Assembly: GCA_938035525.1 (NCBI GenBank)
Contig: CALHOI010000036.1
Coordinates: 1-64,000 of the forward strand
Length of the DNA: 64,000 nt
Reading direction: 5' to 3'
Origin: an uncultured Granulosicoccaceae bacterium
Lineage (GTDB): Bacteria > Pseudomonadota > Gammaproteobacteria > Granulosicoccales > Granulosicoccaceae
The notes under the pieces were generated by a model. It did no database searches and was not told where the DNA came from. It saw nothing but the letters and a program-made list of their open reading frames with translations. Positions 1 through 36,485 of this stretch are shown piece after piece. Position 1 is the stretch's first letter. Each line of letters opens with the position of its first letter. The translations under genes were made by a program, and so were the position numbers.

Positions 1-303
1 TGGTGCCGAGAAGAGGACTTGTACGCGCAATGCAATTGCTCTCACGAGCATATGCTCCCCAGCGCACAGCAAAAAGCATTGGTACTTATCTGTGGAGATG
101 GTGCCGAGAAGAGGAGGTAACGCGCAGTGCAACTGGCGCCGCGCAGCGGGTCTCACGAGATGCTCCCCAGCACACAACAAAAGAATAGAAGTTAGTCTGT
201 GGTAGTGGTGCCGAGAAGAGGACTTGTACGCGCAATGCAATTGCTCTCACGAGCATATGCTCCCCAGCGCACAGCAAAAAGCATTGGTACTTATCTGTGG
301 AGA
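1..303 (-). repeat. Tandem array of ~100-bp units (1-98, 99-205, 206-303) each beginning (plus strand) with the complement of the tRNA-Leu 3' end and CCA; array continues off the window edge
   Basis: tggtgccgagaagagga occurs at 1, 99, 206 and in the tRNA itself at 304. Units 1-98 and 206-303 are identical; 99-205 is diverged. Confidence 0.9.
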
Positions 304-391
304 TGGTGCCGAGAAGAGGACTTGAACCTCCACGAGCATAAGCTCACTAGCACCTGAAGCTAGCGCGTCTACCAATTCCGCCACCTCGGCA
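304..391 (-). tRNA. tRNA-Leu, anticodon CAG, CCA encoded
   Basis: Reverse complement TGCCGAGGTGGCGGAATTGGTAGACGCGCTAGCTTCAGGTGCTAGTGAGCTTATGCTCGTGGAGGTTCAAGTCCTCTTCTCGGCACCA: 7-bp acceptor stem, loop TTCAGGT, long variable arm, T-arm, CCA. Confidence 0.95.
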
Positions 392-428
392 AAGGTCGGG
401 TACTTCTGGAAATCGGGTAAGGAGGGCG

Positions 429-457
429 AATGTACCTAAGCGCGCCCAACCTGTCAA
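429..457 (-). promoter_or_regulatory. Putative sigma70 promoter of tRNA-Leu
   Basis: Minus strand TTGACA (457-452), 17-nt spacer, TACATT (434-429), followed by GC-rich CGCCC discriminator as in stringently controlled tRNA promoters. Confidence 0.6.
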
Positions 458-528
458 CGATGATCGACACCAAATAAGTTAAAAGTCACTTTTAGCGCAA
501 CGATGTCATACGCTGTAAACTGCCCCCC

Positions 529-3519
529 ATGAGTAAACCTAAACGCAAAAAGAACAAGAATCCCGTTGACCCACACCTGGCCAGAGAACAGGCCAAGTAC
601 GGGGAGCCGATTGCCAGCCGAGAACACATTCTCACGTTGTTGCGTCAGGAAAAAGCACCCATCAAATTTGACTCTCTGGCACAAAAGCTTGGTTTAACTG
701 ATGACCCGAAAGGGCTCGACGCGCTCAGTCGTCGAGTGCGGGCCATGCTGCGCGACGGTCAGCTGATCGAGAACCGTAAGCGCGGGTTTGTTCCGGTAGA
801 TGCAGACGCGCTAATTGCTGGCCGCATTACTGCCCACCCCGATGGCTTTGGTTTTCTGGTGCCAGAGAAAAACGATGGCAAGGGAGATGTTTATCTTAAC
901 GGCAAGCAAATGCGGTTGGTTCTGCATGGTGATCGCGTTGTTGTCGCCTTGAGTGGCGTTGATCGCCGGGGACGCCGCGAAGGTCGCATTGTTGATGTCA
1001 TGGAGCGGGCCAATAAATCGGTGGTAGGTCGTTTTCTGGAAGAAAAGGGTGTCATCGTGATTGCGCCGGATAACAAGCGGATTCACCAGGATGTGATGAT
1101 TCCAGAAACCGAGCGGAGCACAGCCGTGCATGGCGACATCGTGGTCGCTGAAATTGTAGAGCAGCCCGATAAGCACAACCCACCGGTGGGTAAGGTGGTC
1201 GAAGTGCTTGGTAAGCACATGGAAGCGGGTATGGAAATCGATATGTCCTTACGCAGCCACGACATACCCTTTGAATGGCCGCAAGAGGTGCTTGATCAGG
1301 CAAATGGTTTTGTCACGGCCGTTGAAGACAAAGACAAGATGGGCCGCAAGGATGTAACACGCTTACCACTAGTGACAATCGACGGGGCCGATGCTCGCGA
1401 TTTTGATGATGCCGTGTATTGCGAAAAAACATCCTCTGGCTGGCGCTTGTTGGTAGCGATTGCCGATGTTGCGCATTACGTTGGTTTGGATACACCGTTG
1501 GATAAAGAAGCAGAAAATCGCGGTACCTCCGTGTACTTTCCGGGTCGCGTGGTTCCCATGTTGCCCGAGGTCTTGTCCAATGGCTTGTGTTCGATTAATC
1601 CGGAAGTTGAAAGGCTTTGCATGTTATGTGAAATGACCTTAGACGAATCCGGTGGTATTAAGCGGGCGCGGTTTTACAATGGCGTGATGTTGTCTCACGC
1701 TCGCCTGACGTACTCTCAGGTCAACGAAATACTAACCAAGCCACAAAGCAAGTTACACGACACCTACGCCGAAGTTGTTCCGCATTTAAAATCGTTGCAT
1801 GAGCTGTACGGTGTGTTGTCGGCCAGTCGGAGTAGTCGCGGGGTAATTGAGTTTGCATCAACCGAAACACGCATATTGTTCGACGATGAAAAAAAGATCA
1901 GCGAGATAGTCCCGATTGTTCGCAACGATGCGCATAAATTAATTGAAGAGTGCATGATTCTGGCTAACGTGGCTGCCGCCGGTTTTCTGGAGCAGCATAG
2001 CGTTCCTGCCTTGTATCGTGTTCACCATGGCCCTAAATCAGACAAGCTCGAAGACTTGCGAGCCTTTTTATCGTTGCGCGGATTAACGCTGGGTGGTGGT
2101 GATCAACCAAGCGCTTTAGACTATGCGGTGCTAAGTAATCAAATAGATGATCGTGCCGATAAAAGTGTGATTTCCACCGTGATGTTGCGATCAATGCAGC
2201 AGGCCGTTTACCAACCTAAAAACGAAGGGCACTTTGGTTTGGCCTTGTCGCAGTACGCGCACTTCACATCCCCAATTAGGCGTTACCCGGATTTACTGGT
2301 TCACCGAGCCATCAAACATGTGCTCAAACGCGACAGCATCATTAACTATCGCTATTCAAAGGAACACATGAACGCGCTGGGTGAAAGCTGCTCCACCACC
2401 GAACGCCGTGCTGAAGAAGCCACTCGGGATGTGGTGAGCTGGCTTAAATGTGAATACATGCAAGACCATATTGGCAGCGAGTACCCAGGCGTCATTACCG
2501 CTGTGACCTCTTTCGGCTTATTTATTGAGTTGTCGGATATTCATGTGGAAGGCTTGCTGCACGTGACCAATTTGTCGCACGATTACTATCGTTACGAACA
2601 GGCAGCGCAAGCCATGGTCGGGGAGCGCACGGGTAAGCAGTATCGCCTTGGTGATTCCATTGATGTGCGTGTTGAGGCGGTTAATCTGGAAGATCGTAAA
2701 ATAGATTTCGCCGAGGTGGGTGTGGGTACTGGTAAATCAGGCAAGCCGAAAAAACGCAAGTCTGCGCGTGCCGGTGAAGAGCAGCAGAGTTACACAAAGC
2801 CTGCAAATGAAAAGCGTAAGCCACCTAAAAAAGAACAAAAAGCCAAACAGAAGAAGCGCAAGAAAGACGAGTGGGATAATTGGGAGAAACAACAGGGGCT
2901 GGCCGAAACCCCGGCAACTGAAAAAACCAAAGCCTCGAAAGATGAGCCGAAAAAAACCACCGCCAAAAAGAAAAGCACCAAAAAAGTATCTTCCAGTAAG
3001 GTAAGTTCTAAGGAGGCGAGTTCTAAGAAGGCCGGTTCTAAGAAGGTAAGCGCAAAGAAAGCCACTTCAAAGAAAAGCCAATCCAAAAAAGCGACTGCGA
3101 AAAAGGCTTCAGGAAAAGTTAACAAGAAGACAGCTGCAAAAAAGGCAGCAAATAAAAAGAAAGTAGCATCGAAGAAAAGCACCACGACCAAGACCACTAA
3201 AAAGGACAGCAATAAAAAAGTCACCAAGAAAGCGTCGTCAAAATTGAATGCAAAGAAAAAAGCTGCATCCAAAAAAACAGCGTCTAAAAAATCGGCGAAG
3301 AAAGTCACTGCCAAGAAGCAGGCGGCAAAAGCGGGCACCATGAAAAAGGCCGTAACGAAGAAAAGCACGGCCAAGCGCACCGCAAAAAAATCGACCGCCA
3401 GCAAGCGCACAGCCAAAAAATCAGTGGCGAAAAAAGAATCCAAAAAAACCACTACAAAGAAGCTCGCTAAAAAGAAGTCATCAGGCCGAGGCGGTAAGCG
3501 CCAAGGTGGTAAGGCATGA
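529..3519 (+). CDS. rnr: Ribonuclease R with very long Lys-rich C-terminal tail
   Basis: RNB domain ([28 protein letters not shown]) and S1 domain; C-terminus from ~aa 740 is lysine-rich; followed by rlmB. Confidence 0.95.
3001..3120 (+). repeat. 15-bp tandem repeats encoding H1-like pentapeptides ([15 protein letters not shown]...) in rnr tail
   Basis: Eight consecutive 15-bp blocks from 3001: gtaagttctaaggag/gcgagttctaagaag/gccggttctaagaag/gtaagcgcaaagaaa/... Confidence 0.85.
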
Positions 3520-36017: not shown

Positions 36018-36485
36018 ATGGCTCGAATCAGTAAACCGGCAAAAGCATCACCTGCTAAAGCTGGAAAAAAGAAAGCAGCCCGTAAAAAGGCTGGAAAGAA
36101 GAAGTCAACGGCACGCCGTAAAAAGGCCGCTGGCAAGAAAAAGGCTACTAAGAAGAAAGCCAAGAAAAAAGTAACCAAGAAACGCGCTACCAAGAAAAAG
36201 GCAGCGGGTAAGAAGCGCGCCAAGAAGAAATCGGCGGGCAAAAAACGCGCTAAGAAGAAGTCAGCCGGTAAGAAACGCGCCAAGAAGAAGGCAGCTGGCA
36301 AGAAGCGCGCTAAGAAAAAGGCAGCTGGTAAGAAGCGCGCCAAGAAGAAGGCCGCTGGTAAAAAGCGTGCCAAGAAGAAGGCCGCTGGTAAGAAGCGCGC
36401 TAAGAAGAAGTCAGCTGGAAAGAAGCGTGCCAAGAAGAAGGCCGCTAAAAAGAAGAGTAAGAAGAAACGTTCTAAGAAGAAGTAA
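36018..36485 (+). CDS. Histone H1-like Lys/Ala-rich DNA-binding protein
   Basis: 155 aa, mostly K/A/R/G; eight AGKKRAKKK(A/S) repeats. Confidence 0.85.
   Translation: MARISKPAKASPAKAGKKKAARKKAGKKKSTARRKKAAGKKKATKKKAKKKVTKKRATKKKAAGKKRAKKKSAGKKRAKKKSAGKKRAKKKAAGKKRAKKKAAGKKRAKKKAAGKKRAKKKAAGKKRAKKKSAGKKRAKKKAAKKKSKKKRSKKK
36204..36443 (+). repeat. Eight tandem 30-bp coding repeats in the H1-like gene
   Basis: gctggtaagaagcgcgccaagaagaaggca-like units in register from 36204. Confidence 0.9.

Follow-up and report, generated by a model that had tools for sequence, protein, structure and literature searches.

A tandem array of tRNA-tailed units, RtT-like in layout, behind tRNA-Leu(CAG) in an uncultured Granulosicoccaceae bacterium

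Anatomy and setting of the tRNA-Leu(CAG) array

The stretch of DNA analysed here (the window) comprises 64,000 nt from an uncultured Granulosicoccaceae bacterium, and its first base is base 1 of contig C36. Close to this end, a tandem array is placed between a tRNA-Leu gene and a convergent HAD operon, with an rnr-like gene on the other side of the tRNA. The locus contains the following features.

529..3519, plus strand: rnr-like gene with RNB, CSD2, OB_RNB and S1 domains, divergent from the tRNA (open reading frame, Pfam)
429..457, minus strand: predicted sigma-70-like promoter of the tRNA, TTGACA-17-TACATT (consensus scan)
304..390, minus strand: tRNA-Leu, anticodon CAG, CCA encoded (ARAGORN and Rfam RF00005, 51.6 bits)
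206..303, minus strand: unit A, first copy, 98 nt, immediately 3′ of tRNA-Leu (repeat search, alignment with relatives)
206..225, minus strand: copy of the tRNA tail in the first unit, AAGTCCTCTTCTCGGCACCA (sequence)
229..243, also 24-38, minus strand: inserted hairpin CAATTGCATTGCGCG, which replaces the 5′ strand of the T-stem (pattern search)
260..268, also 55-63 and 163-171, minus strand: GCTGGGGAG, able to base-pair with CTTCTCGGC, the acceptor-strand copy in the same unit (sequence)
99..205, minus strand: unit B, 107 nt; resembles A in the tail, the CTGGGGAGCAT block and the inserted hairpin, and has otherwise diverged (repeat search, alignment with relatives)
121-135, minus strand: unit B version of the inserted hairpin, CAGTTGCACTGCGCG (pattern search)
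99..115, minus strand: copy of the tRNA tail in unit B, 17 nt identical (sequence)
1..98, minus strand: unit A, second copy, 98 nt, equal to 206-303, at the contig end and overlapping contig C46 (repeat search)
1..20, minus strand: copy of the tRNA tail in the third unit (sequence)

A repeat search and the sequence itself bore out an earlier sequence-only reading of three tRNA-tailed units (98, 107 and 98 nt, minus strand) 3′ of tRNA-Leu(CAG), including their resemblance to the variable arm and the replacement of a piece of the T-arm. Identity to the 3′ end of tRNA-Leu extends over 20 nt in A and 17 nt in B, with the CCA included in both. The proposed A-B-A pattern was also recovered, with identical outer units and a unit B that has diverged from A; positions 1-98 equal 206-303 exactly, and the identity continues beyond the unit (1-115 equals 206-320).

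The array had been seen to run out of the window, and extending it upstream had been proposed as a way of counting units. We located its other side on contig C46, the first 114 bases of which equal the end of C36. On C46, an A unit ends in its CCA a few bases short of the stop codon of a HAD-hydrolase gene; this gene is convergent with the array and is followed by purA, hisZ, hflC, hflK and hflX. Together, the overlap and the position of this unit against the stop codon give A-B-A as the minimum array. Pfam annotation of the nearest genes on both sides of the copies revealed no integrase or element genes, all of them being housekeeping genes. Elsewhere in the window, positions 36190-36446 hold about 8.6 copies of a 30-bp repeat (CCAAGAAGAAGGCAGCTGGTAAGAAGCGCG).

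Leu arrays in relatives and tail copies at other tRNA genes

Searching relatives for the unit, as the sequence-only reading had advised, revealed arrays in two further species of the window's genus (G014 and G020) and in a second genus. G014 carries a complete two-unit array between the tRNA and the downstream genes on a single contig; at the equivalent locus in G020 there is at least one unit, lying across two contigs that overlap by 120 bases. In the second genus (G027 and G035, plus a G032 copy that has decayed), the Leu units carry a variable arm of their own and a different inserted hairpin. By exact pattern, Leu units were found in 5 of 48 Granulosicoccaceae genomes, and tail copies also lie behind tRNA-Leu(CAG) in three more gammaproteobacterial MAGs. 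A search of the genome collection returned 53 matches, most of them away from tRNA genes, with the tRNA-Leu(CAG) arrays comprising 8 stretches from 7 genomes. A plasmid search with the unit gave zero matches, and a viral search for two consecutive tails gave one, away from any tRNA. The near-identical units seen in relatives support a turnover in which units would be copied inside the array.

Two loci of different appearance were also recorded. In a Pseudomonadales MAG (L106:7224-7524), two tRNA-Leu(CAG) units carry an inverted copy of the T-arm and variable arm that is strongly complementary to the tRNA. At L066:3701-3875, a perfect hairpin (GCCGAGGAGGCCTCCTCGGC-ACCA) resembling an acceptor minihelix lies between tRNA-Leu(CAG) and the next gene.

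An assembly artefact had been named as something that would undo the original observation, and two facts point that way: the array reaches the contig end in the window's genome (G000), and a unit spans the contig break in G020. Against this, the G014 array is complete within one contig from tRNA to downstream genes, the same layout is present in the complete genomes of G054 and E. coli K-12, and a misjoined copy of A could not account for unit B, which has a different sequence. We regard an artefact as scarcely credible.

The same layout recurs at other tRNA genes. In G000, tail-copy units were found at tRNA-Lys, -Phe (two), -Ala (two) and -Ser(GGA) as well as at Leu (for Lys, Phe, Ala and Ser(GGA), loci L108, L117, L127 and L131 on contigs C11, C17, C77 and C82), with the first copy 101-163 nt 3′ of the tRNA at the four non-Leu types. 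Five of the 26 tRNAs tested in this genome, Leu included, have a downstream copy of their own tail, compared with 0 in upstream controls. Among complete genomes, tail copies were found at 1 of 32 tRNAs in G023, from the window's genus, and at 4 of 34 in G054, from another family. Elsewhere in Gammaproteobacteria, comparable units stand at tRNA-Gln, -Tyr, -Ser, -Arg and -Met; each copies the tail of its own tRNA, and the tails of Ala and Phe units match the tRNA allele of their own species. Over the fetched loci, a set in which some Leu loci had been picked by pattern, 18 of 103 distinct tRNAs have an exact copy of their last 12 nt no more than 400 nt downstream, whereas upstream and reverse-complement controls gave 0 each; such copies are thus not due to chance. 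Most non-Leu units comprise an inverted T-arm copy and then a GC-rich body.

The copied tails had also prompted the suggestion of att-like remnants, that is, remains of integrative elements that used the tRNA-Leu sequence from T-loop to 3′ end as their attachment site. As at phage attachment sites, the tRNA is duplicated from the T-loop to the CCA, and in seven viral contigs GGTTCAAGTCCTCTTCTCGGCACCA-like cores are present with no accompanying tRNA gene, which indicates that phages do use the tRNA-Leu site. However, these cores contain slightly more of the T-loop than the units do, and have neither the variable-arm copy nor the hairpin. The Leu units, moreover, are tandem, geneless and about 100 bp long, the layout occurs at many tRNAs, including five different ones in a single genome, and the flanks examined, with rnr to one side and HAD, purA, hisZ, hflC, hflK and hflX to the other, contain no integrase. 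On this evidence, an origin from attachment sites appears very improbable.

Structure of the units and comparison with RtT

Between species, the hairpin of the Leu units shows one compensatory change (G-C to A-U) among five sequences, a weak signal. Its 11-nt core is common to Leu and tRNA-Ala units in G014 and G020, a match reached by 1 and 2 of 1000 shuffles, but is not common to Leu and Ala units in G000. We rejected the idea that the hairpin is a dispersed genomic repeat: in a pattern search allowing at most one mismatch, it was almost confined to tRNA-linked units. In this it differs from the BIME/REP elements of Enterobacteria, which are likewise short GC hairpins in intergenic DNA but are dispersed and have no tRNA tail; some BIME/REP elements have been reported as rtT-like (PMC2965389).

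The GCTGGGGAG/CTTCTCGGC helix is paired in 92.5 percent of cells, yet is nearly invariant, and its pairing falls within the shuffle range. For this nearly invariant helix, shuffle tests of inverted-arm pairing with the unit's own tail gave z values of -0.7 and -1.35 in the G000 Leu units and near 0 in those of relatives, compared with -2.8 to -4.2 in the E. coli repeats. Complementarity to the unit's own tail or to the tRNA was not significant against shuffles for Granulosicoccaceae Leu units; complementarity to the tRNA went far beyond shuffles in Phe, Ser, Lys and most Ala units, and in the Leu units of MAG BS301. Free-energy folds of Leu units were no better than those of shuffles, except for the G035 unit. 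The notion that the T-arm replacement mimics a tRNA acceptor was dropped on the shuffle test of pairing.

The E. coli tyrT repeats (178 bp, RF00391), to which the array had been likened, are an old and poorly explained case, for which passages of PMC2965389 and PMC4986893 cite Bosl and Kersten (1991). RtT is an RNA of the tyrT operon for which involvement in the stringent response has been suggested (PMC2965389, PMC4986893), and it has a covarying tandem GA motif (PMC7657543). It has been detected beside tRNA-Asn and tRNA-Lys genes in A. pleuropneumoniae (PMC4986893), so RtT-type RNAs were already known at more than one tRNA. In our incomplete coverage of the literature, we found no account of a tail that tracks its own tRNA or of a short Leu form, and nothing specific on tRNA-tail repeats outside RtT.

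The tyrT/tyrV repeats of E. coli have the same layout as the units described here. In both systems, the tRNA gene is immediately followed by tandem units, near-identical within one genome, that have GC hairpins ahead of a terminal tail copied from the T-loop-to-CCA segment of the tRNA. The likeness drawn by the sequence-only reading is strengthened by recurrence of the layout at several G000 tRNAs and by a weak, full-length match of the tRNA-Ser unit to RtT. In an Rfam scan of 58.7 kb, the four E. coli copies scored 133-138 bits, and the sole other matches, both below the gathering score, were this tRNA-Ser unit (26.3 bits, E 0.0024 searched alone) and a tRNA-Arg unit of G054 (22 bits, E 0.03 searched alone). 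At E up to 1, RF00391 matched 115 of 369 gammaproteobacterial genomes, 23 of them above the cut-off, and in a sample of the phylum it also matched genomes of one family outside Gammaproteobacteria. Of 30 fetched loci with an RtT match, 23 adjoin tRNA-Gln, -Tyr or -Ser with a copied tail.

The Leu units differ from RtT in length (98-107 versus 178 nt), in having a single short hairpin and in following tRNA-Leu(CAG) rather than tRNA-Tyr. The RtT covariance model found no match in window 1-1500 at E up to 1, and the core motifs GGTTCGA, GCCCGNAGGG and GARTAATCC, present in 22-24 of 26 units at RtT-model loci, occur in none of 12 Leu units. Given the lack of a model match and of core motifs, and the weak support for the hairpin, we describe the Leu array as RtT-like in layout. 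A common origin of the Leu array and RtT is probable.

Proposed processing, possible origins and wider context of the array

By analogy with RtT, our preferred reading, to which we give about an even chance, treats the array as a short RtT-like trailer that would be co-transcribed with the tRNA and cleaved at every CCA, yielding small RNAs with CCA ends. Beginning at the tRNA promoter, transcription probably continues into the units; the tRNA 3′-maturation enzymes might then trim at the CCA of the tRNA and at every copied CCA, releasing the small RNAs, and unit number could shift through slippage or recombination between near-identical units. The model for co-transcription and trimming is E. 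coli RttR, whose annotated ends lie at +8 after tyrV and precisely at the CCA that closes the first repeat.

Several observations bear on the trailer reading. It is supported by the recurrence of the layout at five G000 tRNAs, the Ala and Phe tails that match the allele of their own species, the E. coli parallel, the RtT match of the tRNA-Ser unit, and the many RtT-model loci with a copied tail. The promoter-like site matches 10 of 12 consensus positions, with 0.2 such sites expected in shuffles, and no intrinsic terminator was found in window 1-700; both also count in its favour, and the latter bears on termination, one of the roles first suggested for the array. In 9 of 54 arrays, however, a terminator stands between tRNA and unit, which argues against co-transcription as a general rule. 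The hairpin core common to Leu and Ala units in G014 and G020 argues for the trailer reading, and the lack of such sharing between the Leu and Ala units of G000 against it, as do the missing RtT match and motifs, the non-significant inverted arm and the folds no better than those of shuffles. Separately, at L272, L282, L285, L287 and L293, the tail copy is followed by a second, identical or nearly identical trailer with its intrinsic terminator, which places the RtT-like body between two terminators.

A possible, though less likely, explanation is that the units are a functionless by-product of tandem and fold-back duplications that arose repeatedly at tRNA 3′ ends (template switching), with likeness to the tRNA kept by recency and gene conversion. 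Tandem duplication would be expected to repeat the trailer beyond the final copy, as is seen in about 20 of the 54 arrays. The absence of Leu units from most species of the genus, the decay of tails in some Ala, Phe and G032 Leu units, and the Leu folds also fit neutrality. Conversely, the divergence of the A and B spacers has spared the tail, the CTGGGGAGCAT block and the hairpin; the layout recurs at many tRNAs and families, and RtT motifs are conserved at different tRNAs.

Another candidate, which we consider unlikely, is a mobile element spreading between tRNA genes by inserting at the T-loop and adopting the tail of the new tRNA, with the Leu array as its minimal member. It would accommodate the RtT core motifs common to tRNA-Gln, -Tyr and -Ser units of different families, the inverted T-arm copies, and the presence in Leu and Ala units of G014 and G020 of a hairpin core nearly confined to tRNA-linked units. 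Nevertheless, no enzyme gene is known or was seen, a trailer repeated beyond the final copy suits local duplication, and vertical inheritance with loss could also produce the distribution.

More broadly, RtT may be one described member of a wide class of tRNA-tail elements that occur at many tRNAs, recur from the T-loop and keep the local tail, across Gammaproteobacteria and one or more further classes of the phylum, with the Leu array as a minimal form without the RtT core; this generalization is plausible, and we hold it with slightly less confidence than an even chance. A single genome spans the range between the RtT-matching unit at tRNA-Ser and the minimal units at tRNA-Leu, each with a tail matching its own tRNA. 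With this series, it becomes testable whether the copied tail serves as a processing stop, an aid to a terminator or a decoy, or is a neutral relic. As short-read assemblies can break at such arrays, copy numbers may be underestimated.

Finally, contig C29 of the window's genome carries three low-scoring tRNAs (Asn, Asp and Lys by ARAGORN; L138:2404-2950), perhaps a phage-type tRNA cluster, in surroundings that contain more fragments ending in a T-arm and CCA-like sequence.
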